Source: Buxus sempervirens
Lineage: Eukaryota > Streptophyta > Magnoliopsida > Buxales > Buxaceae
Assembly (NCBI GenBank): GCA_947561395.2
Contig: OX387183.1
Location: 43,952,890-44,016,889, forward strand
Direction: 5' to 3'
DNA length: 64,000 bases
Made by a program: the position numbers and the translations under genes. The notes beneath the pieces were generated by a model that was given only the letters and a program-made list of their open reading frames with translations, did no database searches and had not been told where the DNA came from. Positions 6,486-54,648 of the stretch are shown piece after piece (positions within the stretch are counted from its first letter, which is position 1; every line of letters starts with the position of its first letter).

Positions 6486-6629
6486 GTATCCGGCATATTA
6501 GGCCGGATACACAAGTACCTTAATGTATCCGGTATATGATGCTGGATACACTGAGGTCTACTTGTATCCGGCATGTTCCATCGGATACAAAGAAGGACAC
6601 TTGTATCCGGCCTGAGTTGCCGGATACAA
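6486..6629. repeat. Palindrome array P1 of element A (3' LTR), four units
   Basis: Four imperfect palindromes of about 25 bp, spaced about 39 bp, of the form GTATCCGG-8/9 bases-CCGGATAC. They start near 6486, 6525, 6564 and 6603. They lie about 170 bases upstream of the LTR TATA box on the minus strand. Confidence 0.9.
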
Positions 6630-6729
6630 GGAAAAAACTCATTTTCTCAAATTTTGTGCTGGTCTTCAAGGAGATAATGATTTTTGATAATTATTGATCA
6701 TTTTGACAGTGCAATTTGGGGTGTCTACA

Positions 6730-7260
6730 ACTGCACCTCTTTGTGGGAGTTGCGAAGCAATGAGCTGCAAAGATTATACAAGCCCAAATTGCACTCCCTT
6801 AACCTTGATTTGCTTGGTTCAATTCAATTTTGTAAAAAAATAATTTTTAGGTGAAGATTTGCCAAAAAGCCCTAACTTTAATGGGGGCATTTCTCCAAGA
6901 ATTCTTAAACTCCACTGAGCTCTCGTGGCTATGAAGTGGATTTTAAGCCCAAAAATAGGATTTTTGAAAACTGATTTTTTTATCAAACCAAGTTAAAAAT
7001 TGAGTGGATATCTTCCTTTTTGACCAACACATTTCCCAAAGTTGTCCTAAATTCCACTGAGCTCTCGTGGCTGTGAGGTGGATTTTAAGGCAAAAATAGG
7101 ATTTTGTGAGAAAATAGCTAACTTTGCAGCGCATCTTTGCTCTTTTTTCTTTTTTTTTTCTTCTTTTTTTTTTCTTTTCTCCTTTTTTCCCTTTTTTCCT
7201 TTTCTTTTTTCCTTTTTTCATTTCTTTTTCTCTTTTTTCCCTTTTTTTTTGTTTTTCTTT
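6730..7260 (-). other. Element A: polypurine tract and 3' non-coding region
   Basis: Directly inside the 3' LTR the minus strand reads CACAAAGAGGTGCAGT, a degraded version of the polypurine tract seen intact in element B. Two copies of a 'ccactgagctctcgtggct.tga.gtgg' block follow (about 6911 and 7050), also present once near 49775 in B. A polypyrimidine run (T/C only) spans about 7137-7256. Frames open across that run are low-complexity artefacts. Confidence 0.65.
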
Positions 7261-7328
7261 GTATCCGGTATGTTTAGCCGGATAAGAGTGAGCTTGTGTG
7301 TATTCGGCCTGATTCACCGGATACACAC
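7261..7328. repeat. Palindrome array P2 of element A, upstream of the PMD gene
   Basis: Two units with the same stem as the LTR array: GTATCCGG...CCGGATA at 7261 and GTATTCGG...CCGGATAC at about 7301. They immediately precede the presumed 5' leader of the plus-strand PMD gene. Element B has its own array at the equivalent place (49927-50027). Confidence 0.85.
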
Positions 7329-8610: not shown

Positions 8611-10747
8611 ATGGCTAGGAGTCGTTCCCGAGTTAGAGAGGAGGCTGACCCTGCTGATCAGCCCTCCACTTCGCGGGCTCGGACAGAGGCGAGTTCCAGC
8701 GGCACCCTGTCGGAGCCGCTAGATGTCTCCAGGGAGAGCTCTGCTGAGGTAGGCTTTCAAGTTCTTCTTTTCCTCCTTCTATTCTCCTCCCATACCAATC
8801 TTCACACTCTTCCTTTGGACTTTAGCCCATTGTTGCTCCAGTTCGAGGTCGGGGCAGAGGCCGAGGCAGGGTTCAGGATCAGGCCCTTGAGGGCGAGGGA
8901 GGCAGAGGCCGAGGCCGAGGCAGAGCCAGGGGCGCGGCTCAGGATGGTACAGCCGTAGCTTTTTTAGGGGTCTCTGCAGAGCTGAGAGCATCTGTTTAGG
9001 ATACAAAGCTCCTCAGTGTCTTGGATAGCCACCCCTCTATGTGCATCCGGGCCGATGTGCCTCTTCCATATCATTCTTCCCATCTGCGAGGCAGTTGGGG
9101 GAGATTTAGTGTGTTGGCACAGTCGCTTTCCCCAGCGCTTAGACGTGAGTTTGGGAGGTGCCACTTGGATCATTTCCTTAGCATCCCATCGTTCAGAGCC
9201 GACCGTCCACTAATCTTCGCCATGATGGAGAGATATTTTCCGGAGACTCAGTCATTCCATCTGTCGGACGTGGAGTTGGGGATCCGCCCCTCCAATTTTG
9301 TGATGATCACTGGTATTCCTTTGACGGGGCGGACCATCGTCTTGGATCGGCCTTCTGCGGAGGATATCGGCCTCCTCCTGGGATATCCGGACCTGCCTCA
9401 TGCTGCTTGGGATGGGCGGAGTGGTCGCCTCTCTATCACTTGGCTGCGGAAGAGCCTGGCTCATCATTATGGGGGGAGACACGCAACTGTTGCTGTGGAG
9501 GACGCAGCCTTTGTACCTATCTTCCGGCATGTTTTCCTGTTGATGCTCGGGAGCTGCTTCTTTTCGGAGGATATGACCAGCATCAGCCCGCTTTTCTTGG
9601 ATGCTCTGCGAGATTTTCATCAGACTCGCCAGCTAGCATGGGGTCGACTCATCTATGGGACCATCCTAGCTGGGTTGTGCTGAGCGGTTCGAGGCCTGGC
9701 ATCCCCGAGAGGTGATGGAGTCAGCTGCAGGTTTTTCTGGCAAATCATGTAGGTATTAAGTTGTCTTGTCTCATTCCTTGGGCTTTATCTTCCTTTATTT
9801 CTGTCTGATTTTTCTTTTGCCAGGTGTTTATGTACACCTATATGACCTTCTTCCGCCCATCCCCTATATCTGGCGTGGCGGCGTTCCCTATGGCTTTGAG
9901 GTGGTCGGCCCAGGTCCGAGATGCTGATAGGAGTCAGCCTCGCACTGCTCGGGTGCATTTGGACCGTGCCCGCTGATCCGATGTAAATCCTTTCTCCTTC
10001 TTCTGTGCGCACCCCAATTTCAGGCCGCACGACGAGGTGCATGAAGAGGTGATGCTCGCCTCGGGACTGGTTTGGAATCGCCACTGCCTGAGAGGTGCAG
10101 GCAGACACAAAAGGGGCACCTATTCGGGCCTAATTATTCTGGTCTGCAGCTTATTAGAGTTCTGAGTAAGTTCTCGGTTACGTCTAGGGAAGCCCGAAGA
10201 CACCCTAGCCCGCCCCGTCGATTGACAGGTCCCGTGGGTCTCCTTGGTCTTAAGTCAACTTAATTCTCACCCTTCCTAGACCAGCATGCACACTTATTTG
10301 GTCTGAGTGGGGACCATTGAAGGCGTAGGTCCCCTTTATTTTGATTTTATCTTTTTATTTAGTGGAATGGGTTGATCCGGGTCCCGTTGGAAGACCCGTG
10401 GGTTGCCATGATTGGGCCTGGGGCCCAGTTGGGTTATTGGGTAACCCATTTGGTTATTTAGATTTTATTTATTTACAATTTGTTTGGGCTTAATGGGTTT
10501 GGAATGGGCCCATTAGCCAGTGTCAAGTGGCCTTGGGCCCGTTCATTGAAAACGGGCCCGGTTTGGGCCGGTCAAAAGTGGACCCCACAAGTGGGCCCAA
10601 GGTGCCTTGGGGGGCCTATAAGGGCCCATGGTCTATGGAGGGCTAAGAATAGCCCAATCAACTTCCTGGGTCGATTCAGACCGGTTTGGGTTGGATTTGG
10701 GTCCACCCGGGTCGGAAAAAATGGTTTTTAAAGTTACTTCATGGAGT

Positions 10748-10853
10748 GACCGTATTTAATTCACGGTTTGGTCAGAACCGTAATTTTAATACGGTTCAGG
10801 CCAGACCGTAGATTAACTACGGGCACACCTGGACCGCTCTGAGTATACGGTTT
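10748..10853. repeat. Palindrome array in element C, transcribed part of the LTR
   Basis: Units of the form ACCGTA...TACGG: ACCGTATTTAATTCACGGT, AACCGTAATTTTAATACGGTT, ACCGTAGATTAACTACGGG and one partial. Confidence 0.85.
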
Positions 10854-11663
10854 TTGCTCAATTTCGCACTTTTGTGTCGATTCAACTTGGGATCAGTCCG
10901 GCTATCTCCTTGGGACCTCCAATGGCTTCTATGGTGATTCCAGGGCCTTCAGAATCCTTCATTTCCTCCTTTGGGCTTGAAAAGGACATTTTTCTTCTTT
11001 GATTCTTCTTTGAAGAAACCGGATCCTTTCTTATTCGTTTACCTCCAATTTTAAGAATGGAATATGGGGTATTTACAGGGAATTGAGTAACCTCAAAGAA
11101 GTCATGTCCCAATTTAACATAGAACAAGGAGGACCATTAAATTGGTTGATCAAAGTGTCCTTTGGACACTTTCTTTCTTTCTTTCTTTTATATATGATCA
11201 ACTCCTTTCTAAATTCAGCTTGCCATGACTTAAAAGAAAACAGCAAAAAGGTTAGTGGAAGATGTAGAATGTACAATAACTTGAAAAGAAATTAAAGCTT
11301 ATCCCATTGTATTTAAATGGATGAAAAAATACTTACAATGCTATTTATGACTATCTTTAATTGTCCTTCTGAATTTGAGCAATTTTGGCAGCGCTTCCGC
11401 GTCCTCCGAGATTTTCTAAGTTGATTTTAAAAGAGGTTTGGTGGTAGGTTATGCTCAAAGGAAGATCAGAAAGGATTTGGGCATGCTTTTGGTGAGACAG
11501 GGGTATTTTAGGAATGAAAAAGGTTAGGGTATTGGGGAAACGGCAATTGGACAGAAGTTGGCCATAGAAAACATGAGAGGAGAAGGGGGGAATCGGCCCA
11601 GGGGAAGGCTTGCTGAAATGAGGGGGGTGGTCTCTCTATTTATAGGCAAAATTTTCGTGCCCG

Positions 11664-14600
11664 TGTCAGCACCTCATTTTTGCACCCAAAAAAATGAAAG
11701 AATAAAACCCTAATCGAAAAAGTCAAACCTGAAGGGGTCAAAAAGTTGACTTTTTGATCGGGTGCAAATTGACCACCAAACTTTATACCATTGGAAAGAG
11801 GACTTCAATACGATTCTAACGCAACTGAGTTTGCTCAAATCGGAGTCCGGATAAAGAAGTTATGGGTTGGTCAAATCTGGAAATAGCATAAATCGACTTT
11901 CTGCAAAACTCCAAATTAGCTGCTCAATTGGACATCAGCAGAAAGAGCGCGTCGACACGACTCCAACGCAACTGAGTTTGCTGGAATCGGAGTCCCGGAT
12001 AAGGAGATATGAGCAAAACTGGCTCCGGGACGCGAATTCGCACTTCTGCTAAAAAGCCTGAATTTGCTGCCAAACTTTAGCTTAGTGGATAGGGAATCTC
12101 AACCTGATTCCAACGCCACTAAGTTTGCTGAAATCGGATATCAAATGAGAAAGTTATGAGCAGTCAAAAATTTCGGAAAATCTGCACATGTGGCAAGATT
12201 GAAGAAACGACAAAAAATAAAAATCTAAGAATAAAATAATAATATTTTGTAAATATCTAACAATTAAATTAAATCAAAAATAAAATAGAAAATAGAAAAC
12301 ACATGTGTCTTCTAACCAAAAAATCTTAAGAATAAAATAATAATAAATCTTAAAGAATCTAAAAATTAAGATAAATAAAAAATAAACAAAAAAATATCAA
12401 CCACATGTCATCACTATGGATAAGCTTAATGAGTTGGATTCGATGAGAATAAAAAATATTTAAGTTTTAGTTACATGAAACATAAAATTAAAATTCAGTC
12501 AAAAAAGGTGATTAAAATTCATTTTTAGGTCATTTTTTCAACTATAAAAGGGGGGCCACCCCCATTCCATTCTAAGCACCAAACCTCTCTCTTCTTCCCC
12601 TTTTGCTCTCTCCCACTTCACTACCCCTCTCCTCTCTTGTGTTTTTGCTCATCCCATACTCTGCCAAAATCCCCACTTCACTTTCAGACATAATTTTCCT
12701 TCCCATTTTACCCCTCAACCATACCTAATCCCTTCCCCTTTTACCCTTTCGATCTAGGAAGGAGGAGAACCCCCTTATCAACCCATTTTTGGAAATCTAA
12801 AGGAGTGCGGAAGCGCTGTCCAAATTTCTCCTCAACTCTAATCCCTTTTTACCTAAAGCAAGAGAGGCCCTGTTCAAATCAATTCGTGAAATCCAACGGA
12901 GGTGCGGAAGCGCTGCCAAAATTCTCGGAAAACCGTCACACATCAACAAGAAGAAGGTAATAGCAAAAGAATGTTTCTGGTAATGTAATATTCAACATGT
13001 CTTAAATTTGACTTTGTTTTTAAATCCTCTTTATCTACTATTTGTTTCATTACGTTTATCTCACCGGCTTGCTCTTATTGTACGCGGCATTGAGTTCCCC
13101 ATGGTGAAGGTACCCAACTAAGAGGTGAAAAGAAAATGTCTTTTGGTTATAGGACTCAAGCTAACACCATTTCTCTTTTGTTAAATTGATACTTACCCAT
13201 CTTGGCTATTCATTACGGAGGGAGTTGTCCTCCTTGGGAATCTGTTGTAACCCATAAAATTTCCTCCCTCTATCCCTTCTAAAAGTCCTCATGCATGTGG
13301 GTTTACAAGCAATGGAGTGTTAAAGAGGAAAGATGAAGATTGGCAGCCAAGTGAAGATATTTGCACAATAAGATTGTGCTAGGATCACCAGCAGAGGTTG
13401 CCGAATGACAATAGAAGACATCCAAATCGATCACCACTGAAAATGTTGCAAAATTGTAAAATCGGGCGAAGCCCGTATTTTATGTACGGACCAGGAGTGC
13501 CCATATTCAATATACGGTCCGGTCTGAACCGTGTTAAAATTATGGTTCAGACCAAACCGTAGAGTAAATACGGGCAGACCATGGGCCTAGATGGGCCCAC
13601 CAAGACACCCCGGGCCCACATGTGTGGTCCACATTTCGACTGGCCTAAACCAAGCCCGTTTTCAACAAACAGGCCCAAGGCCACTTGACTCTGGCTAATG
13701 GGCCCACTCCAAGCCCACTAAGCCCAAACTAAAATTGTAAATAAATAAAACTTAATAAAATAAACAAATGGGTTACCCAATAACCCAACTGGGCCCCAGG
13801 CCCAACCATGGCAGCCTACGGGTCTTCCAACGGGACCCGGGTCCGACCCACTTCACTTAAATAAATAAAAAAGATAAAATCAAAATAAAAGGGACCCACA
13901 CCTATAGAGGGCCCCGCCAGACCCAACAAGGCAGCATGCTGGTTTAGGAAGGGTGAGATTGACTCAAAAATCAGGGAGACCCGAGGGACCCGTCAGACTG
14001 GCGGGGCGGATCGGAGTGTCTTTAGGACTTCCCCGGACCGTAACCGAGGACTTAGCTAGAACTCTAATAAGCCGCAGACCAGACTTAGACCCGATAGGGC
14101 AAACATCGTGTCTGCCTGCACCTCTCAGGTAGTGGCGACTCCGAAAGTCCCGAGGCACGCACGAAACCCTCCACGTGCGCTTCGTGTGCGATCTAGGTCA
14201 GATTTAGGTGCGCACAGCTTGAACTACTTTTATCAATGAAATTCTTCAGGAATCACTAACTTTTGTTCTAGCAAATGTGTTGGATTTTTCTCCCCTTTTC
14301 CTACATACAAAGAAGTCACCATGACAGAAAGATGATTCGATGGTATGGGGTAAAGTGTGATTCAAAGGCATTCTCTTTATTTTCAAAAAGGGAGCATGTT
14401 CCCTTCCTCATCTTCAAATTCTAATGTACCCCTATTAAGTCCCCTTAATCCTTTCTTAATATGTTGTCATTTCATTTCATTTTTTTTTGGTTTGATTGGT
14501 AGGAGATCAACAAGGTTTTTTTTTTAAGTATTGCACCACTGTAGGCCCACACAGGGGCCCACATAATTTCAAGCAACCCCAAAAACCCAAAATAGACCTT

Positions 14601-15012
14601 GGATTTGACAGTCCAAATTGATCCAATGTGGGCCTTCCAACGGGGCCCACCTCCGACCCACTTCACTTTAATGGATAAAAAGATAAAAATGAATAAAAGG
14701 GACTTACACCTGCAAAGGTCCCTACCAGACTTAATCTGATACATGCTGGGCTAGGATCAGGGTGAGACTAAGTTGACTCAGAACCAGGGAAACCCAAGGG
14801 ACCCGTCATTTGACGGGGCGGACCGGGGTGTTTTCGGACTTCCCCGGACCGTAACCGAGAACTTGCCCGAATCTCTAAAAAAGACGCAGACCAGCAAATC
14901 TTAGACCTGTATAGGCACCCAAGTGTCTGCCTGCACATCTCAGGCAGTGGCGACTCCGATACCTCGAAACCCCAACGCATTCCGTGCGGCGCCTCACCGG
15001 GACGTGCGCACA
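11664..15012 (+). mobile_element. Element D: short LTR element nested in C
   Basis: Starts TGTCAGCACC and ends GTGCGCACA, with GCCCG duplicated outside (11659-11663 and 15013-15017). It holds one apparently full LTR (11664-14216, TATA box ACTATAAAAGG at 12541), about 300 bases of unrecognised sequence, then the 3' 500 bases of a second LTR copy (about 14511-15012). No gag or pol remains. Both LTR ends keep an internal TGGCGACTCCG motif, as other Tat-type LTRs here do. It belongs to the same family as C but lies in the opposite orientation. The 5' end of its second LTR is deleted. Confidence 0.85.
13470..13585. repeat. Palindrome array in element D
   Basis: CCCGTATTTTATGTACGG, CCCATATTCAATATACGG and related units, at the same relative place in the LTR as the array at 10748-10853 in C. 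Confidence 0.85.
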
Positions 15013-15013
15013 G

Positions 15014-15256
15014 CCCGTATTTGAACTACGGGCATGCCTTGCCCATACTTCAAGTATTGGCGTGCCTTGCCCGTACTTCAAGTACGGGTGTGCCTTGCCC
15101 ATAATTCAAAGATGGGCGAAAAACGCATATTTCCAAATCTCGCAAAATCGTCCGTACAGGACGCGTGTCCCGCCGTACAACGACACGCGTCCCCTTCTAG
15201 AAGCTTTCCCGTATTTGAAGTACGGGCATGCCTCGCCCGTACTTCAAATACGGTCC
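15014..15256. repeat. Palindrome array in element C, upstream of its TATA box
   Basis: At least six units such as CCCGTACTTCAAGTACGGG, with near-identical spacers (CATGCCTTG / TGTGCCTTG). Before D inserted, this array lay directly upstream of the C promoter. D's target duplication GCCCG is the first half of one of these stems. Confidence 0.9.
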
Positions 15257-17359
15257 AGCACGTTTTTAAAATGTTTGGATTTCAAACATTTATTCAATTT
15301 GGTTTATTTAAAGATTTTTATCCGATTTTTTGATTATTTTATTATAAAAACGAGATTCTTTTATTAAAATATTATTAAAAAATAAAGATATTTTTACTAA
15401 ATGATTATTTTATTTATTTAATTCATTTATTCTGCTTTTAGCTGCTGTTTTGCCACATGGGCAGCTTTCTTGAAACTTCAACTGCCCATAACTTTTCCGT
15501 CTGATGTCCGATTTCAGCAAATTTGGTGTCGTTGGAATCGGCTCGAAACCCACTATCCATTGGGATCAAATTGGCCAGTTGAATTGGGGTCAAGCAAAAA
15601 GTCAACTTTCGCTTCCCCAAAAGTTTGACTGGCTCATAACTTCCTCATCCGGACTCCGATTCTGGCAAACTCAGTTGCATTAGAACCGTGTCGAAATGCT
15701 CTTTTCAATGAGAGGAAGTTTGATGGCCAATTCTCTTTGGATCAAAAAGTCAAATTTTGGCCCCCTCAGGGTTTGACTTTTTAGTTGAAATTTTCATTTT
15801 CTGCAGTTTTGGGGGTGCCAAAATCAGGTGTCTACATCTTCCTTTTATTTCTTTTTCTGCATCTTGACTGTATCTGACCATTTCTCTTCTTTGCAGCTCA
15901 TCCTGTACCGCTTTAACGACGTGGATGTCGGAGTGTCCCGTGAGATGGCAGTACAGGACACCTTTGATAGAGATCGGCAACGTCAGCCCTACCAGTGCTT
16001 CCTTGGGAGGCTTGGTAGGGTGATGTACTTGGGAGAGCGCCTGTACTATCAGCACACCGGCGCACTTCGTATCCCCGTTCCTCCTCCTCCTGTGGGTCCC
16101 GACACGCTCCTGCTGGGTTTTGATGTTGATCAGTTTGATCATTTCCAGGATGCGGAGGGGCTCACAGTAGCTGGGGATTACGACGAGTGGATCCAGAGAG
16201 TATCCATTGGGTGCTTGATGGATCGACCCACTCGTGCTAGGGTGACCGAGATCGGTGGGATCTGTATCCGGATCCATGAGGACACGGTGAGTCTTGTAAT
16301 CTTCACATCCACTTTTCTTCCCTTCTGTATTTTTGACCCCAATTCTGTTCTTGTTGGCAGGTACACAAGCTGAATACTATCCGGGACCGGTTCGAGAGTC
16401 AGTGGGCCGCGATCGATGATATGATCGCCGAGCATGATGCGGTCGTGGCCCAGAGGGATGCTCGTATCAGGGAGCTGGAGGCCTTGGTTGCTGAGCTCCA
16501 GGCTACACAGGTATCTGGTCTTCTTATAATTTCGTTTCTTTCATGTTTCTGCTATTCTGCTATTCTAATATGCTGGTTTGATTTTTGCAGGGCCCGGTCC
16601 CGGATCATGACGCTGCCTTTGAGCATGATTTCCTCATTCCTGACCCGTCTCCCGCTCGGGCTACTGATCCTGTGGACGTCCCAGCTGCTGCTGCGGATGC
16701 CCCGGCTGCTCCTTCATCTCCAATGATGGTTCCTAAGCCGGAGGACATCCCTGCTGCTGACCCAGTGGAGTCGGATCCCCCAGTCCCTGCTATAGATATC
16801 CCTAGTATGTTTTCTTTAATTTTCCCTTTTTGGTTCATTTTGACGTTTTTATTTCTGACTTTATCTCCATTTAGCACAGATATTTCTGCTCTTGGCCCTT
16901 CCTCTGATGCTGCTGGGCCTTCTGGATCTGCGGGTCCAGTCAAGCCTGCTCGTGCTGAGCCCAAGGTATCCTCTCCAGATTTTGCTCCTGCTCCGCCCCC
17001 AGACCTCGAGGAGTATTGCTTGGAGTATCAGATCCAGCAAGTGGTGGGTCGGCTTCCTTGTCACGCTGCCGAGCGTATTCTGGCATACTCTAGGGGCCGA
17101 TCACTTCGAGGAAGAGGCCGTAGAGGAGGACGCGGCCGAGGACGCGGGGATGATCCTGCACAGAAGTAGGAGATTAGGATTTTTATGTATTTTTACTCTT
17201 TTGTACCAAGAAACTTGCATTTATATATGAAAGAAACTTTTTATTCATTCTCTCTTGTCTTGCACTTCTTTTCTTTTCCATTTCATGCAATTATGACTTG
17301 TACACAGGTAAGAAATTCGGATTTTCCTCCTTTTACTCTTTTTTTTTGCATTTTTCCTT

Positions 17360-17502
17360 TGTATCCGGCATATCAGACCGGATACATTGAGTTTTCTTTG
17401 TATCCGGCATAATATGCCGAATATGCTCAAAGCTCTTTGTATCCAGCATTGTTCACCGGATATGAAGAAATTCCTTTGTATCCAGTCTGATATACCAGAT
17501 AA
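17360..17502. repeat. Palindrome array P3 of element A, next to the DUF7745 gene promoter
   Basis: Four units (starting about 17361, 17400, 17439 and 17478; period 39 bp) with stem GTATCCGG/CCGGATAC, the last two decayed (GTATCCAG...CCGGATA, GTATCCAG...CCAGATA). The array ends 12 bases before a TATA box. Confidence 0.9.
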
Positions 17503-17513
17503 TTTAAAACATG

Positions 17514-17522
17514 CTATAAATG
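17514..17522 (+). promoter_or_regulatory. TATA box of the element A DUF7745 gene
   Basis: CTATAAATG, about 110 bases before the chosen ATG and directly downstream of the palindrome array. Element B has CTATATAAAC (54672-54681) in the same position relative to its array and ATG. Confidence 0.7.
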
Positions 17523-17632
17523 CAACCAGTCTCGGGATTTGAGCATTTTTTTACGAGTTTTTGAGTTTAGAAATCCCCTTTTTCGCCTTTTTCTTCCTCC
17601 CCTTGAGTTCTAGCTTGCTCCCATCATATCTA

Positions 17633-19329
17633 ATGGAATCCGGATCATCTTTTGCCTTACCATTGTCTATCCACACAGCCTCCCCTGCAAAACAGCCTTT
17701 TAGATCAAAACCACCTAATCTTACTAGGTACAATCCTATGGACTCTTTTTATAATAGTTGGGTTAATTCTATGACCGTGGATGAGGAGAGGAGATGGGAT
17801 TCCAACCATCTAGGCCACATTCTGCTTATCCCGAAGGTTCCCTTCAAGTGGGAGATTATTGAAGCCCTGATTGGCCATTGGGTACCCGACCTCAACCTTT
17901 TCCGTTTTGGGACCCATGAGATGACCCCAACCATTGAGGAGGTTGAAACTATCTTGGGCTTGAGGTTTGATGAAAAGGTAGTGAATCCACCCCTTAGGCC
18001 CAACTACAAGAAGGAGGCTTCTACTTTCTTGGGCATAGGGAAGAAGGACTTAGGGGACTCTGACACCCTTTTGACATTGTCTAAGTCTTTTTTGACTGAG
18101 AAGCTCTTGAGAGGGGAAAATAAGGAAGCTAGGTTTAATGCATTGACTCTGATAGTGGTCAACCAGCTACTTTTCCCACGAGATGATGATGAGGTAGACT
18201 TGGCTCTAATCTCAGTGATATGCCAGGTTAGGGAGCGGGAGAGGTTGGCTCCTATGATTTTGGTAGAGATGTACCAGGCACTGACTGACTGCTACAATAG
18301 GAAGTCGAAACACTTCTTAGCATGTGCCCCGATCCTGCAGGTAAATTTTTTTTTTCTGCTATTTCTTTTTTTTTTGCTTTCTTTTTTTTTGTCTTTTTTC
18401 TTTTACAATGTTGATATATCTCTATTTCTTTGCAGCTTTGGCTACTTGATCATTTGAGTCAGATTGAGGAGATCAATCGACACTTCTTCCCCAGCTTGAA
18501 GGTTCCTATCTTGATGAGCAACCGGGGGTGTCCCAACATTCCAGGAGGTAAACAGGGCTGGTTTACTTTCTTGGGTTCACTCCAGGATGATCAGGTGAGG
18601 TGGCCTGTTACCTACCAGCCCAATGCAGAGATCGTGATCAGCTTCCGAGACCGTAATTTCCTGATTCTGGCTGGCCTGAGACATGCAGTGCTTTATCTTC
18701 CTTTGTGGGTCCTTCGTCAATTCAGAGCGACCCAGGGGATTATGATCCCAGGTGGGTATGAGGATCATCTTGGGCCCCTTTCTCTAGCTACCATGACGCT
18801 GAATGCCTGGTTGATGAGGGAGTGGTCATATGTTCGCTTCATATGGGGCCCCGTCTTCTCAAAGTCCCATGTGAAGGACTATCTCTTCTGGATCAGGGAG
18901 CAGATACAGAGTTAGGCTCCAGTACCCGAAGATCCTCCTGCAGTCTTGGCTCCTACTTAAGAGGATATTTTAGAGTCTGAGAGAGCTTCCCACAAGCGAC
19001 TTCAGCAGATATGGGTACGAGAGGCCCAGGAGCTTAGGATACGGGGCCTTGACATGGAAAGGCAACTTGCAGAGCAGGTATCTCGCCGTCTAGCTATGGA
19101 GAAGCAACTTGAGGAGCATAGGTAGGCCCGCTGTCTTGAAGTCCGAGCACTGAGGCAGAAGCACCAGGATTCTTTAGCCGACCTTAGGAGCATGCGGATT
19201 AGGCAGACTCTTTCAGATTAGGTCATTTCCTTCTTGAGTGATCCCGCTGCAGAGGGGGCTTCTGGAGTTATTGCAGCTCAGGCAGCTCGGATTCGAGAGC
19301 TTGAGGAGCGGCTAGGAGACAGAGATTAG
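17633..19329 (+). pseudogene. DUF7745-like gene of element A, two exons, antisense to gag-pol
   Basis: Exons 17633-18340 and 18436-19329, with a 95-base pyrimidine-rich intron (GTAAAT...TTTGCAG). The start is chosen by alignment with B (SKPPNLTRYN follows about 25-30 residues after the Met in both) and by the upstream TATA box. The fold-family signature is a WDS.HLGHIL block, EALIGHWVPDLNLFRF, MTPTIEEVETILGL, then FNALTLIVVNQLLFP and FLACAPILQLWLLDHL. This pattern matches DUF7745, a plant domain of unknown function often linked to retroelements. The C-terminal third is a coiled coil rich in Glu, Arg and Leu, ending RIRELEERLGDRD. Exon 1 is fully open, but exon 2 has stops at 18913, 18958, 19123 and 19219. 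Molecular function is unknown. Confidence 0.8.
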
Positions 19330-31471: not shown

Positions 31472-31610
31472 GTATCCGGCATTAAGGGCCGGATAAGGAT
31501 ATGTCTTATTGTATCCGGCAATAATGACCGGATACACGCATACACCTTTGTAACCGGCAATTTATACCGGATATGAATAAAAGTCTTCTTAACCGACCTG
31601 AGTTGCCGAT
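31472..31610. repeat. Palindrome array P4 of element A, in the 5' leader
   Basis: Four units starting about 31472, 31511, 31551 and 31590 with the A-type stem (GTATCCGG...CCGGATA), the last two decayed to GTAACCGG...CCGGATA and TAACCGAC...TTGCCGATTA. The period is again 39 bp. No TATA box or coding frame is evident beside it. Confidence 0.85.
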
Positions 31611-37940: not shown

Positions 37941-37986
37941 CAATTTAGGTAAGAGGCTTATTAGAATATCAAGCATGGGCGACCTC

Positions 37987-40250: not shown

Positions 40251-40270
40251 TTTGGTTCACATCGTTGAAC

Positions 40271-42430: not shown

Positions 42431-42483
<53 letters not shown>

Positions 42484-42999: not shown

Positions 43000-43911
43000 T
43001 TGATAAAAAAACACCAAAATAAAAGATATTAGACCATAAGGTCTTCTCTCAAAGATTAAAGTCATTTGAAACCATTTCTCAAAACCCTGGAGATTATTCT
43101 AAGGCTTTTGATCTCAGATCTACCATATTGATCATGATAAATCCAAAATCTAAACCTATATTAACCAAAAGAAATAAACTAGTGAAAATGGGTGAAGTTG
43201 TGTGAGAAATCTGAATTTTAGGAGGAAAAAGAGGATCTAATGCTATGAACACCATAGATCCATGTGATTCCTCAAGATTTGAAATAAAATCATAACAATA
43301 CAACCACACACAGAATATTAAAAGACCTACAAAGCATCATCACAAAAAAGGGGTTCTATCCTAGGGATCCATTCCTATTCTCGTTTCCCCTAGCTCTCTC
43401 TTCACGTTTTAGGCTAAAGAGGGTGCTTAAGGTACTCAGAGGTAGGTTTGGGGCTACAAGCACAATCAGGTCTCTACACTACAGAAAGGGAGAAGATGAG
43501 ACTATCCTAAGATTAACAAAAGAAAAGAGGAGAGGAGAGGCTTACCTTGGTTGCTTGAGAGAGTTGAGAGGCAAGGGTTCCCTTCTTCTCCAGGAGCTCT
43601 TCAAGCTTCAATTTTCAAACATTTGTTTGAGGAGAGACCCTCTATTTATAGGCAAAGTCAAGGGTATAGGAGGTCACAAGGGTAGGCCAAAGTTTCTTTC
43701 TAGATTCTTCCAACTCAATTTTAAGGCATGAGTTGGAGTGAATCCAAAGGATTCGGAGGGCAAATAGGGAAGATCAAGTCTCCTAGAAAGAGGTAAAAAG
43801 GATAAATAAGGCTCAGATCCCGAGCCTTTGCGAAACTGCGCAAAATGAACGTGTCCGCATATACAATGCGGTCATGTTCAGTCTACACTATATATGCGGA
43901 CAATACCAAAC
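43000..43911 (-). mobile_element. Tat-type LTR fragment, minus orientation
   Basis: Shares with the B LTR the word CTACCATATTGATCATGATA (43121-43140 and 48489-48508), the CCCCTAGCTCTCTCTTCACG block, a TATA box (near 43645) and a splice donor (AAGGTAAGC near 43545). It stops at 43911 where an oppositely oriented LTR begins. Two palindromes (GTCCGCA...TGCGG, 43853-43901) lie upstream of its TATA box. The left limit is approximate. Confidence 0.7.
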
Positions 43912-44595
43912 TGTAGACACCCCAAATTGCACTACAAGATGAGAAAATAAAGAAAAATATTTAATTGGGGTTTGAAACAGGTCAAAAAAGTGTAAAAATT
44001 GATCAGACCTGTATTGCCCGCATTAAAAGTGCGGACTTGTGGTGACCGCATTTGTTCTGCGGTCATTACGTAACGGCATTGAAAATGCGGTCAAGGCATG
44101 ACCGCAATTCAAATGCGGTCACGTGTAATTTCGGTTTTTTTTCTAATACTCAATTTTGAGCCATATTTACCACTCTTACCTCTCTCTAGGGGTTTCGTTT
44201 ACCCCGTTTTACCCTCCATTGGTTCTTAAATTTACCCCAACTCAAGTTTTAAAACTTAGTTGGAACATTCTAGAACCTTATTTTGGGCTACCCTTGTGAC
44301 CACCCATGTCCTTGCTCTTGCCTATAAATAGAGGGCCTCTCCTCTAGCAAATGGCTGAGAATTGAAGACCAGAAGAACTCTAAGTGAAGAAGAGAACCCC
44401 TGCCTCTCTGCTTTCTTAAGTCCAGGTAAGCCTCTCTTCCATTTTATTTTCTATCTTTAATTTCTAGGATTATTCTGATCCTCTCCCTTTTTGTAGAATA
44501 AGGCCTGTGTATGATTGTAACTCGAAACCTAAATCCAAGTACCTCAAGTATCTCCTCTAGCCGTTAAACGTGAAGAAAGAAGTGTGGGCAGCACA
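43912..44595 (+). mobile_element. Tat-type LTR fragment, plus orientation, cut by a CACTA end
   Basis: Starts TGTAGACACCCCAAATTGCA, as the A and B LTRs do. It has TATA at 44323-44330, splice donor CCAG/GTAAGC at 44426 and an AATAAGGCC signal near 44500, then breaks at a CACTA terminus. The continuation of the LTR is not found further right. Confidence 0.85.
44017..44120. repeat. Palindrome array with ACCGCA/TGCGGT stem
   Basis: Four units including GACCGCATTTGTTCTGCGGTC and GACCGCAATTCAAATGCGGTC, about 205 bases upstream of the LTR TATA box. The stem differs from those of A and B. Confidence 0.92.
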
Positions 44596-45250: not shown

Positions 45251-47766
45251 TCAGAGCTCAGATTTTTGAATGTTCTGTTTGTATTTTCTATTCCGAATTT
45301 TTTTAACCTGTAAGTTTTGCCCTGAACTATATATATACACCTGTAGAAACATCTTATGATAACAACCAAATCTTCTCAAGTGCCACAAAAAAGATTAAAT
45401 TAACATAAATAAAACCTTAACAATTAATAAAAGTGCTAATACATTGTATTTCCATAAAACATACATACACTCTAATAATTAATTTAAAAATATATGGTAA
45501 TTAAAATTTTTAATAATTGTGTCAAATACATGTAATTAAACTAAAAAATTCAATAGCTCTTCAGTTATAGTCGTCGCTTGCTGGTCCACCTTCCAATAAT
45601 GCACAAGTTGATTCATCCTGCTTCCTGCAAAAAAAAAAATTTGATAAGTTTAACATGAATGTTATATGACAAATAAACAGTATAAAAGACATACATAAAA
45701 CTTTCAATTATAACAAACATTTGCAATTACGCAAATTGAGTTTTCATATACACTAAATTAAAAGTGATTAATTAATTTCAAGTTAGATTTATTTTAAAAT
45801 CCCTAAAGAAATAAATAAATAATAATAATAATAAATAGCCCAAAATACATTAAAAATGAGAGCTATTTCTTAATAAAAAAATTCTAAGTCTCAATCAATA
45901 AAGATGAGCCCAAATTTTGGCAGCATCTCCCTTAAAATGGAAGGGGTGACCACGCCCAAATAGGTCCTAAAATCAAATAACCTGCAATAACCTACAATGG
46001 TGTTGTACTTTCATGGTTTTACACATCCTTTCTTTGAACAATACAAGTGTTACTACAAGTTTAATCTTTCCATGATATAAGAATGCAATCACTATAAAAT
46101 TGTGCCTTTATGGCGAGTCTCAAAGTGGCAGCTTTATGAATACAAATTGATAGAACTAAAAAAGAACTAGATTGTTAAAAGATGATCAACTAACCAAATG
46201 CAAACCTTTAGTCTATACCATATAGAAACAACAAATTGATCACAGATAGAAGCTAGAATCATCAAGGATATCCAAAGTAAAGAACCTGTGCTTCATTTGC
46301 TTAAATCAAAACTTATCTGCAACTGTTTAAGTTTAGAAAATTTACTCTTTACTTGGAGAAGAAGAAAGCAATGACGAACCTTACCAATGGAGAAGAAGTT
46401 TGATGAACATGTGCCTTGATTTGGGGAAAAAACCAATGTCGTAGAAAACGCAAACCGGTACTGGAAGTCATGTCTTTTACTCCTTTAATGAAGAATAAGA
46501 ATTCTGGGTTAGATTGGAAGAGGTACTACGATGACCCAGATCTCTTCCCCCTTCCACAAGAGTTCCTCAGTTGATCTTATCTCTCTGCCTATAGAATTAG
46601 GATTCTTAACAACGATAGTATACATGTGAATAGACTTGCTTCTTTTGCCTTTCACATGTATGATATCGTTGTCAAGAATCCTAATTCTCGAGGCAAAGAG
46701 ATAAGATTAACCGATGAACTCTTGTGGAAGGAGGTAGAGATCTGGGTCATCATAGTACCTCTCCAACCTAACCCAAAATTCTTATTGTTCATTAGAGGAG
46801 TAAGAAGATATGCCTTATTGATTTTTCTTGTCTAAAAAGCCTAGAAGCCCACACAACACCTAAAAGTTCCCTCGCTTGAGCCGAAATTTCAGCAGCACCT
46901 CCCCTAAAATGGAAGGGGTGACCAAGCCCAAATAGGTCGCAAAAACAGATAACCTGCAATAAAAAATCTATATATCATTCATACATCTAATTCCCACCCT
47001 CAATTTCAATTATCCAATTCCTTTTCATCCATGCAAAAAGGTGATATATAATTTTTGAACTGTATAAATATTTCAGAAATTGAAGAAAAGTGCTATATAA
47101 GTGGTTTGGTTGTAACCTGAGGAAGTTCGTAGACACCCCGTGTTACCCCGCTAGATAGCGGGTTCCCATGATTCTGAATTTAAGGCTGAGTTAACTATAT
47201 CCTATTCTTGCATGCTTCATGTTTAGGCTTGTTTGGACCTTTTTTTTTTTTTTTTTTTTGAGGCTTTGGGTACAGGTTGCAACCACCTTCAAAAGGAAAA
47301 TAGTGCATTACTGACTTAACAAACCAGCCATCCTTTAAGCATTTAAACCAATCACCAAAAGACAACATACAAAACAGGCCACATGAAGTATATGTTCATA
47401 TATGATGAAAATTATGCTAAAATAATACAAATGAGGGGTATGTGCAACAATATGAACAAGTAAATAGCAACTGGAGCAATGGGAACCCACTATAGCTAAA
47501 CAAAATACAGAAGGAAAACTAAGGGATGAAGACATCAAACAATCAAGTCCATAACTGTACCCAGAAACCAACAATTGAGGAAAAAAACCAGCTGTGAAAG
47601 GAAGAAACCAGCACCCAACATCAACATCATTTGTCTAGATCCATGGCTATAACAAAATTGCATGATACATCCGTGGATGGGTGCAAAGAGTTCATGGCAA
47701 GTGGGGAGGAAGTGGGTGAGTCTTCTTCACCTAACTCCAATGGGAAATAAACCCAGAATAACCAGT
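45251..47766. other. Non-coding DNA between the CACTA end and element B
   Basis: Holds an 85-bp direct repeat (45905-45990 and 46877-46964, GGCAGCA.CTCCC.TAAAATGG) flanking a long hairpin (46468-46812), a possible LTR-start fragment (GTAGACACCCCGTGTTACC near 47133) and a poly-T run near 47241-47261. No gene can be supported. Parts may be interior of a decayed CACTA element. Confidence 0.5.
46468..46812. repeat. Long near-perfect hairpin, 162-bp arms, 20-base loop
   Basis: 46468-46629 is an inverted repeat of 46651-46812 with roughly one mismatch per eight bases, and the loop is 46631-46650. A transcript through it would fold into a long duplex of the kind processed by Dicer-like enzymes. It could equally be a foldback transposon. 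Confidence 0.85.
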
Positions 47767-49572
47767 TGTGAGACATGGAAAAATCAATTTAATGATTTCC
47801 TAATCATCACACGGGATTAAATTAAAACAAAGAGTCGCCACCATTCAATTTAGGTGTGAATGGACACCAAAATATCAAATAAGCACAAAAGGCAATTTTA
47901 GGGTAAAAATAACCCTCCTTAAAAAAAACCAGAGATGGGTAAGGAGATTAGGTTATGAACAGGGGAAGGTGTTAGGCACCCCTATTCATCCACACAAGGT
48001 GGTTGCCAGGTATTGTTCATGTTTAAATAAAGGAAAAAAAGGCTTGCTATAAAATTCATGAAAAATCACAAAAAAGACAAAATTGTATGGTTTTTTTCAT
48101 ACGAATAGTCTGATTGATCTAGAATCTTCAAATATGATCATACCATTCCTAGGGTTTCATGATCAAAACAAAATTGAGATGAAATCAAATAAAATCAATT
48201 TAAAGTGAAAAATCCAAAAATATGGCTTCAAGTCAAATTCTAGAAATCTAGAAAAATATGATTTTTATAAAATATTTCAAAATTGAACTTGAACAATCCA
48301 GGATATAAGTATAGCCCAAATTTCACATTAAATCTGAAAATCAAAACAAAAAATACCCACGTTGATGAAGAACATCAAAAGGGGAGAACTTAGACCGTAG
48401 GATCTTCTCTCAATAATGAAAAACGACTCAAAAACAACATCATGAAACCCTAGAATTTACTTTCCGGCTTCTAGATCCAGATCTACCATATTGATCATGA
48501 TAAATCCAGGATCTTAGCCTAAAATCACAAAAATCACGAAAACAGTGCTGTAGGTGCAAAAGTGGCAAAAATCCAAATTTTATAAAAAAGTGGGGATCTC
48601 AAGCTATAAACATTATGGATTCATGGATTCATTCAGATATATCATAAAAAGCATTCAAACATGATCAAGATATTCAAAACAATCACATCTCACAGATTAG
48701 AGCACATGGAGGTCTACCCTACGGATCCACCTGTTCTCTTTTCCCCTAGCTCTCTCTTCACGTTTTACGGCTAGAGAGGATTCTTGAGGTACTTAGAGAT
48801 AGGTTTGGTGATACAAACACAATTAGAGGCTTTATTCTATAAGAAAAAGAAAAACAGATATGGGGTTCTATTCTAGGGATCCACCTGTTCTCTTTTCCCC
48901 TAGCTCTCTCTTCACGTTTTACGGCTAGAGAGACTCTTGAGGTACTTAGAGGCAAGTTTAGGAATACTAGATACAAAAGATGGCCTTATTCTACAGCAAT
49001 AGAGATGATCCTATTACTTCTAGAATTGAAGACAGAAAATAAAAAGGAAAAGGGACTTACCTGGATTGAGCAAGCAAAGCAGCAGGGGTTCCTCTTCTTC
49101 TCTTGGAGCTCTTGATTCTTCAAATTTTCGTGGCCTTTTGCTTGAGAATCTCACCTCTATTTATAGGCAAGCACAGGGGTAAGGCTGGTCCAGTATTTGG
49201 CAAGATAGAATTTCAGTTTGAGTTAAATACAAGATAATGCCCATCCATAGCCAACCAAGGTGGCTTCAGCGAATAAAATACGTAATTCGCTCATTTAAAG
49301 ATATATTGGACTAAAGATAAAGCTCGGAAATCGAGAGAAGGACAAAACTCGCATGTGTCTTTAGTGACTGTGAATGCACTACGGTCCAATGGTGACCGTA
49401 TAGTTACTACGGGCGCGCCTGACCGTAGAGAATTTTCGAGCGCGACGGGCCCATGAAGGAAATACGGGCAAAGTCTGCTTAGTCAGTTTTTATGCATTTT
49501 TGACCTGTTTTAAGCTCTAATTATATGTTTTTATTATTTTCTCATTCTGTAGTGCAATTTGGGGTGTCTACA
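47767..49572 (-). mobile_element. Element B 3' LTR
   Basis: The minus strand starts TGTAGACACCCCAAATTGC and ends TGTCTCACA. TATA lies near 49157-49166 and splice donor CCAG/GTAAGT near 49060. The internal GGTGGCGACTC motif is about 70 bases from the end. A block of about 150 bp is present twice (48715-48864 and 48865-49010), each copy with the CCACCTGTTCTCTTTTCCCC segment and an AATAA-type signal. Confidence 0.9.
49380..49468. repeat. Palindrome array of element B, LTR copy
   Basis: TACGGTC...GACCGTA, ACCGTATAGTTACTACGGG and two weaker units, about 215 bases upstream of the LTR TATA box on the minus strand. Confidence 0.8.
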
Positions 49573-49591
49573 GCTGCCCCCTCTTTGCTGG
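49573..49591 (-). other. Polypurine tract of element B
   Basis: The minus strand reads CCAGCAAAGAGGGGGCAGC immediately before the 3' LTR, the expected primer for plus-strand synthesis. Confidence 0.9.
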
Positions 49592-49926: not shown

Positions 49927-50027
49927 CCCGTATTTCTATCACGGACAAATCCTACCCGTAGGTTGTTCACGGGCGAACGGGACCGTATTGCTTTCACGGG
50001 CGTCTGATGCCCGTACTGATGTTACGG
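49927..50027. repeat. Palindrome array of element B, upstream of the PMD gene
   Basis: Four units: CCCGTATTTCTATCACGG, CCCGTAGGTTGTTCACGGG, ACCGTATTGCTTTCACGGG and CCCGTACTGATGTTACGG. It sits at the same place as the A-type array at 7261-7328. Confidence 0.9.
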
Positions 50028-51433: not shown

Positions 51434-54305
51434 ATGGCCCGCCTTCGATCAGCTTCCCGGGATCCTGCAGATGAGCCTTCCTCTTCGAGGGTTAGGCGAG
51501 ATCCTGCTGATGTGGCCTCGTCTTCGAGGGCCGAGAGGGATTCGGATTCTGATGTCCCTGATCTTCCTTCTGGGGATTCGCGTGAGGCGACCCCAGAGGT
51601 ATACTCTAACCTTTTTGAAATTTCATATCCTTTCCCAAAATACATCTTCCTGATTCTTTCCTCCCTTTAATTATTTTCTTTTAGCCGGCTGTTGAGGCTT
51701 CTGGCAGAGATAGGAGCCGTAGCAGGCGTCGAGCTGGATGCAAAGATGGAGGCCTTGATGAGGGCTGTAGAGGAGGCTGCAGATGGGGCCGTGGCAGAGA
51801 CGAGGCCAGGACCAGGGTTGAGATCCCTGAGGAGGTGGCTGCCCAGATTAGGGATACCGATCTTTTGCATGGCTTGAGGACTCATCCCTCAGCGTGTATT
51901 AGGGCGGATATCCCTTTGGAGTATGCTATGTCCCACTATAGAGGGAGCTGGGCCAGCTTCACTAGATTTTTGGGAGCGTGCAGTTCGGCCTACCGTCGGG
52001 AGCTAGGCTTGTATGGTTTTGGTATGTTTATCACCATCCCGGACGTTCGCTTGGATCGAGCCCTCATTGCTGCATTGCTCGAGAGATTTTTCCCAGAGAC
52101 TTTGAGCTTCCACTTCCCAGATATTGAGATCGGGATCCGGCCTTCTGACTTCACCCTTATCACTGGGATTAGGATGGTTGGTGATATCATTCCTGAGATG
52201 GCGATGCCAGAGGCTGATGAGGTTGCAGCTTATCTTGGATATATCGTGCTGCCACCAGAGGCCTGGGATCGGGGGAGAGCGAGATTGTCTCTGACATGGT
52301 TGAGAGAGACTTTCAGGAGGAGGCAGTTTGGTCAGCTTGCTGCCAGTGACCACGTTTTTCCATATGCCTTCCGATTCCTCTTTCTGTATATGATGGGATC
52401 TTGTTTCTTCCTAGAGGACACGACTTCAGTTAGTCCTCATTTCCTGAGCTTACTGGGAGATCTTCAGCGGGCGAGGAGGTATGCCTGGGGCTCGCTTATT
52501 TTTGGCACTATTTTGGCTGGCCTTCGCCGATCAGTGAGCGGCCTCTCTACCTCCAGAGGAGCTGGAGTTGGGTGCAGATTCTTCTAGCCCTTTCTGCAGG
52601 TGAAATATTTATTTTTCTTTCTTTCTTTCTATTTCTTTTTTTCTTTTTTTTTCTATTCTTCTGATCTTTTATTCTTTCTGCAGTTCTTTGCTAGGGTTTA
52701 TATACCCTATTTCCGCCCTACCTCTACGATGTTTGAGGAGACGTACCCCATGGCACGTAGATGGTGTCATGTAGAGCACGACTCTGAAAAGAGTCGTCCT
52801 AGGTCCGCCCGGGCCCACTTGGACAGGTTGTACCGGTCTGAGGTAATCTTCTTTAATTCCTCTACTTTCTTCTTTTCTTTTCTTCCTGAATCACATATCT
52901 GATGTCCTGTTCTGTTTTTCAGCTATTTCTCCCCAGGATGGAGGATATTCACGAGGTGGTGGCCCTGCATGCAGCCAGAGATGATGCATTTGTCCCTGAC
53001 CAGAGACGACAGAGATACCAGTTCTTTATCGGTCAGCTGGGCAGCATCTGGTACTGCGGCGAGCGCTTCTTCTTTCAGCATGTGGGAGAGCCGCAGATTC
53101 CTGCCATCCCGCCAGATACTACTCCTTCCTACCCTCCTATGCCTGTTGATCCTTCCCAGTTCCTAGATTGGACTGAGGCAGAGACATTATTGGAGGAGGG
53201 TGACTATGATGCCTGGTTTAGGCGAGCTTCAGTTGGGTGCCTCATGCCACCTATGCCTGTCCGTGGCGGAGTCACTGAGATTGGAGGGGTAGTGATTAGG
53301 GCCTATGACACTACGGTATGCCTTCTTCCTTTTCACCTTTTTATTTTCATTTGCTCTTGACATTTTCTGACCCTTTCTTTTCTATTTCAGGAGGCTCAGT
53401 TGGCAGAGATCCGATCTTGATATGCTGATCTAGAGCGCCAGCGAGATGCTGCGATCGCCGAGCGGGATGCCCTTTATATTACCATTTCAGACCTCCGGGG
53501 GCAGCTAGCTAGAGCCCAGGGACAGGAGGGTCCATCTGATGCACAGGACCAGGCGGGTCCATCTTATACTCAGGCTAATTTCTTCTTTTATTTCCATTCC
53601 TGCTCTTGTATTAATTTGTCTGGTTCTGACTGAAATTCCTTCTCTTAGTTTCAGGAGGACACAGCCGGCCCTTCTTCACCTGCTTCACCCGTGCCCATGC
53701 ATTTTCGGGATGAGGTATTTTCTGTGGCACGGGTGGAGTTCGTGACGTCTCCCAGTCCAGTAGAGGTTCCTGCAGCAGAGCCCGAGGTAGAGGCTACTGA
53801 TATTGCACCTGCTGCTGAGGATGTGCCAGAGTCGGCCCCAGTAGCTGAGACTGCTCCTGTGGCATCTGCGGATGTAGATATGGATTCGGCTATGGACGCT
53901 GCTGTGGTAGAGCCTACTGTGGAGGCCGTGGTGATGGAGGAGGCTGCAGTTGATCCTGTGCCTGAGGTGGATGCTGATGTACCAGGGACATCTGCTCCTG
54001 CTGGTCCTGTTATGGAGGCTATAGAGGAGACGCCTGCTGCTGCTGATCCTTCTGCGGATTCTTCCCGTACTGATTCTGATCCCGAGTCTACGGGATATGT
54101 AGATACTTCAGGGTACGTCCCTCCTGATCATCCCACTACTGGCCTTGTGCCTTTATATATGTGGTATGATATTCAATCTGTTTTGAGCAGGATGACTCGT
54201 AGCACCGCCCGCAATATTGTGCGGCATGTCTTTAAGCGTAGGCGATCTTCAGGCCGTGGTCGGGGTAGAGGACGAGGCCGTGGCTGTAGGGGCGGACCTG
54301 CATAG
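51434..54305 (+). pseudogene. Plant mobile domain (PMD) gene of element B, six coding exons, antisense to gag-pol
   Basis: Exons 51434-51598, 51685-52599, 52684-52842, 52923-53315, 53391-53573 and 53655-54305 (821 codons plus stop). Exons 3 and 4 have 159 and 393 bases against 159 and 390 in A. The N-terminus is Arg/Ser-rich. The PMD has LDRALIAALLERFFPETLSF, FTLITGIRMVG, ARLSLTWLRETFRRRQFG and ARRYAWGSLIFGTILAGL. The next exon has EMYPMARRW-like ETYPMARRWCHVE. Exon 5 is a coiled coil. Exon 6 is an acidic, Ala/Val/Pro-rich linker followed by LYMWYDIQSVLSRM and a GRGRGRGRG tail. Two stops break it, at 52585 (TAG where A has TGG) and 53418 (TGA). Intron 5 would need a GC donor (CAG/GCTAAT), perhaps a mutated GT. 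A nuclear protein is likely by analogy with MAIN. Confidence 0.85.
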
Positions 54306-54519
54306 ACAGTAGATTAAGATTTTTCATATATACTTGTATTTTTGACAAAATTGATGTAAACATTCATATATATATAAAAGAAATTTAATTTTCACTCATT
54401 TGTGTTCTTTTCTGCTTTTTTTCAGTATTTATTGCATGATGAATGTTAAAACAGGGACAGGTAAAGCTTAGGGAAACAAGGAAATTAAGAATTCCCATTT
54501 TTTTGCATTTTTCGAAGGA

Positions 54520-54648
54520 ACCGTATTTAATCTACGAGCAAGCCGTGCCCGTAAAGTTAATACGGGTGCACTCTGCCCGTGAATTTTTCACGGTCAAGTG
54601 TGTCCGTAGTTCCTATACGGGCGGGGTTTGCCCGTAGTATAATTACGG
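54520..54648. repeat. Palindrome array of element B, next to the DUF7745 gene promoter
   Basis: Five units, including CCCGTAAAGTTAATACGGG, CCCGTGAATTTTTCACGG and CCCGTAGTATAATTACGG. It ends about 25 bases before the TATA box, the same layout as 17360-17502 in A. Confidence 0.92.

Follow-up and report, generated by a model that had tools for sequence, protein, structure and literature searches.

Tandem palindromes with a common CCG-N11-CGG core, putative operators at the promoters of Tat/Ogre-type retrotransposons in Buxus sempervirens

The stretch analysed here, referred to as the window, comprises 64,000 nucleotides of the Buxus sempervirens genome (C3:43952890-44016889) and holds tandem arrays of short palindromes, or dyads, at the promoters of two related retrotransposons, A and B, which by their sequence are of the Tat/Ogre type. 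Window coordinates count along the whole stretch, genome-wide counts refer to the 676.5-Mb genome, and L-numbers (L025, L028 and so on) designate individual loci retrieved from it. Element A (4387-35652, minus strand) is about 31 kb long including an insertion, D, and its long terminal repeats (LTRs) are 97.2% identical (33394-35652 versus 4461-6729, 2269 aligned columns). Element B is also on the minus strand, with only its 3' part within the window and its 5' end beyond the window edge. The two are 78% identical over 8 kb, and Pfam matches together with their comparison place reverse transcriptase (RT), RNase H (RH), an additional RH and integrase (INT) in both. Between pol and the 3' LTR each element has two further genes, a gene for a plant mobile domain (PMD) protein and a DUF7745 gene; both run antisense to gag-pol, the elements themselves being on the minus strand. 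The main features are as follows.

4387-6729, minus strand: 3' LTR of element A
9000-9680, plus strand: PMD exon of element A, antisense to gag-pol (PF10536, E 9.8e-11; open reading frame (ORF) 9021-9683)
10004-15845, minus strand: element D, inserted in the PMD gene of A (L030 and L037 align with 15845 and 10004 adjoining; no ORF of at least 200 amino acids)
17633-18337, plus strand: exon 1 of the DUF7745 gene of element A, exon end inferred (PF24924, E 2.2e-20; PF10536, E 1.9e-12; ORF 17561-18457)
20282-23866, minus strand: RT, RH, additional RH and INT region of element A
29527-30570, minus strand: gag of element A (PF03732, E 1.5e-11)
33394-35652, minus strand: 5' LTR of element A (identity to 4461-6729; LTR start motif at 35652; inner end broken by an inversion at about 32922-33393)
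43912-44580, plus strand: LTR C (LTR start and TATA box; right end provisional)
47766-49572, minus strand: 3' LTR of element B
51685-52584, plus strand: PMD exon of element B (PF10536, E 8e-16; ORF 51835-52587)
54772-55452, plus strand: exon 1 of the DUF7745 gene of element B (PF24924, E 6.2e-18; ORF 54715-55455)
57420-63958, minus strand: gag-pol of element B (RH, additional RH, INT; RT; gag region)

The DUF7745 ORFs at 17561-18457 and 54715-55455 match the PMD profile as well (E 1.9e-12 and 5.8e-11), which makes a distant paralogy between the two antisense genes probable. D is a 5.8-kb insertion, since its flanks are contiguous in the copies L030 and L037.

A preliminary description of this DNA had reported dyad arrays in both LTRs of A, upstream of its PMD and DUF7745 genes and in its gag leader, at the LTR, PMD and DUF7745 positions of B, and in a third LTR. 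All of these are present, and the array of the A DUF7745 gene does end 12 bp before the TATA box (17502 to 17515). Three further arrays, all in D, were found beyond that description. What had been taken for an LTR pair near 43912 proved to be two head-to-head pieces about 72% alike, not a matched pair; they occupy 43395-44580, and the minus-strand piece keeps one C-type dyad at 43854-43872.

6486-6627: A-type array in the 3' LTR of A, 4 dyads
7261-7324: array of 2 A-type dyads, upstream of the PMD gene of A
10750-10850: first array of D, (A/C)CCGTA, 28-bp period
13473-13573: second array of D, 28-bp period
15015-15253: third array of D, in two sub-arrays
17361-17502: A-type array before the DUF7745 gene of A, 4 dyads, the last degenerate; 12 bp before the TATA box at 17515
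31472-31613: A-type array in the gag leader of A, 3 good dyads and 1 degenerate; same place in L036
35419-35560: A-type array of 4 dyads at a 39-bp period in the 5' LTR of A; the TATA box at 35252 follows about 166 bp downstream
44018-44118: C-type array with a 28-bp period, ACCGCA-N7-TGCGGT, beginning 106 bp into the LTR whose start is 43912
49368-49468: B-type array in the LTR of B, degenerate (both triplets in 1 of 4 lattice units; start approximate)
49928-50027: B-type array upstream of the PMD gene of B, 4 dyads
54521-54648: B-type array upstream of the DUF7745 gene of B, 5 lattice units, both triplets in 4

The stems are TATCCGG-N9-CCGGATA in type A, (A/C)CCGTA-N7-TACGG in B and D, and ACCGCA-N7-TGCGGT in C. 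Around the triplet, however, all four reduce to CCG-N11-CGG with half-sites 14 bp apart, and it is the neighbouring bases that vary by family (TATCCGG, CCCGTA, ACCGCA, and AACCGAA, which was found in this analysis). The earlier statements that the stems differ between A, B and the third LTR, and that position is conserved while sequence changes, therefore hold for position and for the flanking bases but not for the core, and the idea of unrelated stems was rejected because A, B and C share it. The array period is independent of the stem: it is 39 bp in A and 27 or 28 bp in B, type E (AACCGAA-N7-TTCGGTT) resembles A with 38-39 bp, and the units of L102 follow at 28 bp except for a single step of 41 bp.

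The window contains 40 occurrences of CCG-N11-CGG, compared with a mean of 2.34 in 100 dinucleotide shuffles (shuffle maximum 10 for any spacer of 0-59), and this motif ranks first among all scored combinations of a triplet, its reverse complement and a spacer of 1-39. Other spacers from 0 to 36 give at most 16 occurrences each; spacers 37, 39 and 50 give 20, 23 and 20, which we take for reflections of the array periods. Of the 40, 34 fall in arrays or LTR pieces of the four elements (A 11, B 9, D 10 and C 4, one of the last standing alone in the LTR piece on the minus strand, at 43855), and the other six are scattered. The mirror spacing CGG-N11-CCG is also raised (24 versus 2.35 in shuffles) because half-sites alternate every 14 bp in the 28-bp arrays.

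The same motifs abound genome-wide. The A-type pattern GTATCCGG-N7..10-CCGGATAC has 20,481 places, its reversed form none, and all of the 50 places listed have N9 although N7 to N10 were allowed. CCG-N11-CGG-N11-CCG was counted 28,546 times forward and 28,631 times in reverse (reversed controls 2,450 and 2,651), CCGTA-N7-TACGG at 28,303 places (reversed control 1,785), and the type E dyad at 1,634 (reversed control 24). CCGTA-N8..12-TACGG gave 423 for the five spacers jointly, about 85 per spacer, with a reversed control of 5,027; because this control exceeds the signal, reversed controls evidently depend on letter order, and the comparison that matters is that of N7 with N8-N12, by which the spacer is exact. 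The A dyad was also met in 24 IMG/VR viral contigs, at one place each, which we provisionally took as coincidence. On C1, groups of 28-bp arrays recur at intervals of about 0.9-1.0 kb.

Array positions are as regular as the spacer. Eleven of the 21 clusters formed by the 50 listed places (of 20,481) were retrieved, and 11 of 11 lie at a canonical place, five in LTRs, five at DUF7745 promoters and one in a gag leader; random positions, which had been named beforehand as contrary to the idea, were not seen. Among the listed places, five LTR-DUF7745-LTR trios agree in order and in their intervals (14.9-15.7 kb and 4.7-5.7 kb), and L028 also carries the PMD-side array. At least one A-type dyad lies upstream in all 30 listed DUF7745 copies (of 132 scored, the window's own included), with lattice scores of 49-62 of 64, and in 26 of the 30 the distance from the array start to the matched DUF7745 frame is 199±3 bp. 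Among 30 PMD loci of type B (of 131 scored) an array was seen only in L081, the 1.5-kb flank being too short to reach the array.

Measured from the LTR start, the pairs of CCG-N11-CGG fall at 94-223 bp and the TATA box at 386-410 bp in LTRs of all three types, A, B and C, as read from the window and from L028, L029 and L031. An outlier in L029, with pairs at 362-479 and TATA at 655, spans a nested junction, and L025/L027, which are one place, have pairs at 581-659 and no TATA call. In both L029 (C1:3408500-3411500) and L031 (C1:3433500-3437500) an A-type LTR adjoins a B-type LTR piece, which we interpret as insertion of an A-type element into a B-type LTR.

Within arrays, conservation is concentrated in the half-sites. 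Between units of the window arrays the half-sites are 82-92% identical, loops and linkers 31-45%. By type, identity is 0.85 for the stem (8 bp), 0.45 for the loop and 0.35 for the linker in A (14 lattice units, one LTR taken); core, loop and outside give 0.82, 0.31 and 0.31 in B (13 units), 0.92, 0.43 and 0.42 in C (4 units), and 0.88, 0.45 and 0.40 in D (13 units). In L102 (4 units) and L105 (3 units) the loops reach 0.38 and 0.38 and the outside 0.36 and 0.48; their core identity of 1.00 is so by construction, only matching units having been taken. The same holds between copies: in 27 of the 30 A-type DUF7745 copies (L046, L052 and L064 were left out for low lattice score) the mean pairwise difference is 0.072 in stems, 0.188 in loops and 0.212 in linkers (one-sided Mann-Whitney p of 0.0015 for stem versus loop and 8e-5 for stem versus linker), and the 24 TAT/ATA columns show zero differences. 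Of 100 stem changes 90 are C>T or G>A, an excess that decay of methylated sites would be expected to produce. The 117 bp between array and DUF7745 gene are conserved like the stems (major-base frequency 0.969 versus 0.958).

The relation of the arrays to the DUF7745 protein was followed in eight diverse-looking loci taken from 118 scored DUF7745 places (family search, 5,751 candidates). Arrays are present in four of the eight: B-type in L101, AACCG(C/T)A in L102, similar but degenerate with one exact pair in L104, and AACCGAA in L105; they were not found in the 560 bp upstream of DUF7745 in L098, L099, L100 and L103. A tree of the first 130 DUF7745 residues was built from 12 rows (these eight, A and B of the window and two chosen A copies) with a midpoint root, L099 and L103 carrying a long-branch warning. 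It places arrays in all eight rows of one clade versus none of the four in its sister clade (split support 100/100), and stem type follows the subclades (A 100/98, C-like 94/93, B 86/84). A stem type unrelated to the proteins, another contrary outcome named in the preliminary description, was thus not seen for DUF7745 in these 12 rows, although covariation itself is not statistically proven because the tree has no repeated independent switches.

Between A and B the amino acid identity is 89% for RH-INT, 86% for RT, 76-77% for DUF7745, 65% for gag and 51-52% for PMD, and nonsynonymous divergence (dN) rises in the same order, 0.052, 0.072, 0.149, 0.225 and 0.494. Within families both antisense proteins are under purifying selection: the ratio of nonsynonymous to synonymous divergence (dN/dS) is 0.067 for PMD of B (434 of 435 pairs, 30 loci), 0.062 for PMD of A (6 rows) and 0.063 for DUF7745 of A (the 26 of 30 loci holding the anchor word, with the window copy). 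By these values PMD is constrained within a family and is the most divergent between families A and B, in step with the operator. The block alignable between A and B starts just inside the DUF7745 coding region (17680/54809), and from this alignment the DUF7745 promoter and its array have been replaced, or have diverged past recognition, while the gene stayed similar.

These results suggest that the arrays are putative operators for a dimeric DNA-binding protein encoded by the elements themselves, a reading to which we give a probability of roughly 0.6. Such a dimer would recognise a pair of CCG half-sites set 14 bp apart as mirror images, with the bases beside the triplet conferring family specificity, and would bind at every promoter of its own element (those of the LTR and of the two antisense genes, plus the gag leader in A), leading to co-ordinated transcription. 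Upstream of the LTR TATA box, a distance of about 165-215 bp is in keeping with an activating element. The effect would most likely be that of an activator or anti-silencer, with feedback on the binder's own gene, as the array adjoining the TATA box of the antisense genes would make possible. Because CCG and CGG are also CG and CHG methylation sites, binding could perhaps be coupled to methylation, as with the VANC proteins considered below. PMD is our tentative first candidate for the binder, DUF7745 a less probable one, and another protein of the element would take the small remainder. The fuller picture, at slightly below even odds, is of a self-encoded control system in Ogre/Tat elements, where a PMD or DUF7745 dimer would read the invariant CCG-N11-CGG and the flanks would be re-specified in each family, leaving families regulatorily private and the non-coding D tapping in. 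D has the B-type operator in sequence that gives no blastn match to B, as would be expected of a target of a trans-acting factor.

The co-evolving operator and element-encoded binder proposed in the preliminary description are thus favoured by the kept positions and by stem types that follow DUF7745 subclades, but the core is unchanged and the covariation unproven, and several other observations weigh against an element-encoded binder, or against PMD in that part. Few families were sampled, with zero repeated stem switches, and the PMD comparison covers families A and B only. PMD may have been exchanged as a module by recombination, since its synonymous difference is also high: the proportion of synonymous differences (pS) between A and B is 0.83 in PMD and in a 51-codon piece of DUF7745 exon 2, 0.76 in gag, 0.65 in DUF7745 exon 1, 0.60 in RH-INT and 0.54 in RT. 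No Pfam match to a known DNA-binding domain was obtained in the scanned exon pieces of PMD and DUF7745, and no sequence relative in the PDB at E<=1 for PMD of B or DUF7745 of A. Some arrays are degenerate (the LTR of B with both triplets in 1 of 4 units, L104 with one pair, the last unit of the A leader), and in L102 the bases inside the triplets are mixed.

The alternative that survives best, although we consider it unlikely, is a host transcription or chromatin factor that binds CCG-N11-CGG, for which the families would have evolved sites, the flanks reflecting host paralogues or drift. It explains the invariant core, identical in all families seen, equally well, and D carries arrays without long ORFs. 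One host factor does not explain, however, why flanks vary between families but are conserved inside each one (stem identity 0.85 in A; no TAT/ATA difference in 27 copies), and the arrays follow one DUF7745 clade.

If the binder is element-encoded, DUF7745 rather than PMD could be that protein, a sub-case that counts within the probability given above and that we think doubtful. Its core promoter abuts the array, as in autoregulation, array presence follows its clade (8 of 8 rows, compared with 0 of 4 in the sister clade), the array holds its position in the 30 listed copies, and a charged, possibly coiled-coil C-terminal part, judged by eye, could dimerise. Against this sub-case, DUF7745 is 76-77% identical between A and B although the operators differ, PMD genes carry the same arrays, and the PMD comparison is limited to A and B.

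The arrays might act instead as RNA hairpins in packaging, processing or small-RNA production, which is very improbable. The dyads can pair, the gag-leader array is in a transcribed leader and full-length RNA crosses the internal arrays. Among 960 stem pairs from all 30 copies there are 117 one-sided changes, of which 52 still allow G-T (G-U) pairing, in 34 cases at the outermost base, and 12 two-sided changes against 3.6 expected if sides were independent; 10 of these 12, however, are in three poor-lattice rows, and just 5 of 12 still pair. The array of the 5' LTR lies upstream of the TATA box, and in each family the exact letters recur between units, beyond what pairing demands. We set this reading aside on the one-sided changes and the array positions. 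That the arrays are neutral, homogenised tandem repeats without function is equally hard to credit, for although tandem arrays of unknown function are common in Retand (Tat) elements (accessible text of PMC11963269) and stem changes among the copies, 90 of 100 of them C>T or G>A, show the present arrays decaying, homogenisation would have kept loops and linkers as alike as stems and does not explain the fixed spacer or the like placement before TATA boxes and gene starts across families.

Several further features were recorded. Stops at 8997-8999, between open stretches of the A PMD region, and at 55742-55744 and 55979-55981 in exon 2 of the B DUF7745 gene suggest decay of these copies, an intron being the alternative for the PMD break. 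D has internal copies, inverted and direct (10003-10634 versus 13576-14217; 11670-12258 versus 15386-15830). At 32922-33393 the inner end of the A 5' LTR is inverted relative to A, together with the primer binding site, which has its plus-strand match at 32996; 32922-32993 matches 4387-4458 in reverse at 98.6%. The gag leader of A has a 74-bp tandem repeat of about 6.5 copies (30672-31156), with related repeats in L036, and the gag-region ORF of B (61424-63958) has a G-patch domain close to its end (E 1.4e-6). Between the elements, an ORF at 38129-38920 resembles purine transporters (PUNUT, E 4e-59) and is probably a host gene.

Among known systems, the elements themselves come close to Ogre elements with PMD extra ORFs, which share with A and B the large size, the PMD ORF and the additional RNase H between RH and INT (PMC6317226). 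The ORF at 57420-59648 has the corresponding order RT_RNaseH, RVT_3, rve, and PF10536 lies antisense between pol and 3' LTR in both elements. A PMD extra ORF is reported for 57% of Ogre elements, and regulatory dyads are not described in the accessible parts of that source (PMC6317226); the role of PMD genes in giant plant retrotransposons is given as unknown (accessible text of PMC9289625). No homologue of the B PMD protein was found at E<=0.001 among 7,200 candidates, and no mention of DUF7745 in the open-licence literature searched. Retand, also of the Tat lineage, has antisense ORFs between pol and 3' LTR and family-specific tandem arrays, and a regulatory role has been suggested for its antisense TRP28 ORFs (PMC11963269). 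In the accessible text no promoter link or palindromic operators with an invariant core are described for its arrays, and the antisense proteins here are PMD and DUF7745; Transposase_28 (TRP28) had no match among 16 ORFs scanned, a subset of those of A and B. The host PMD proteins MAIN and MAIL1 are needed for expression of genes sharing a promoter 'DOWN' motif, but these are host genes, and in the accessible text direct binding is not shown and the motif is not described as palindromic (PMC7156037). Descriptions of such dyads in retrotransposons were not found in the open-licence PMC literature (titles and abstract openings, subscription papers being outside the search). Since one exact DNA grammar ties PMD genes and tandem arrays to promoters, the question of their function becomes directly testable.

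The resemblance to VANC and VANDAL elements, drawn in the preliminary description, stands for the logic but not for the protein families, the element class or the palindromic form. In this anti-silencing system of Arabidopsis, the non-coding regions of VANDAL elements hold tandem arrays of family-specific motifs, to which VANC proteins bind (PMC5735166; PMC10398659), and a 2025 meeting report mentions unpublished VANC-DNA structures (accessible part of PMC12859917). As far as the accessible text of these sources goes, both systems have short family-specific motifs repeated in the element's own non-coding regions, the motif changes between related families, and co-evolution with an element-encoded protein has been proposed (PMC5735166; PMC10398659). 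VANDAL, however, is a MULE-type DNA transposon, whereas A and B have LTRs, gag, RT and INT, and its motifs are 9 bp long in one orientation, whereas those reported here are palindromic CCG-N11-CGG dyads of fixed spacing. No Pfam match to a VANC-type (DUF1985) protein was found in the exon pieces scanned, first exons matching PMD or DUF7745 only and later pieces DUF7745 or weakly. If the proposed reading is true, these elements would offer a natural series of operator and protein pairs for studying change of DNA-binding specificity, and self-targeting regulators with switching specificity would have arisen in two very different classes of transposable element.

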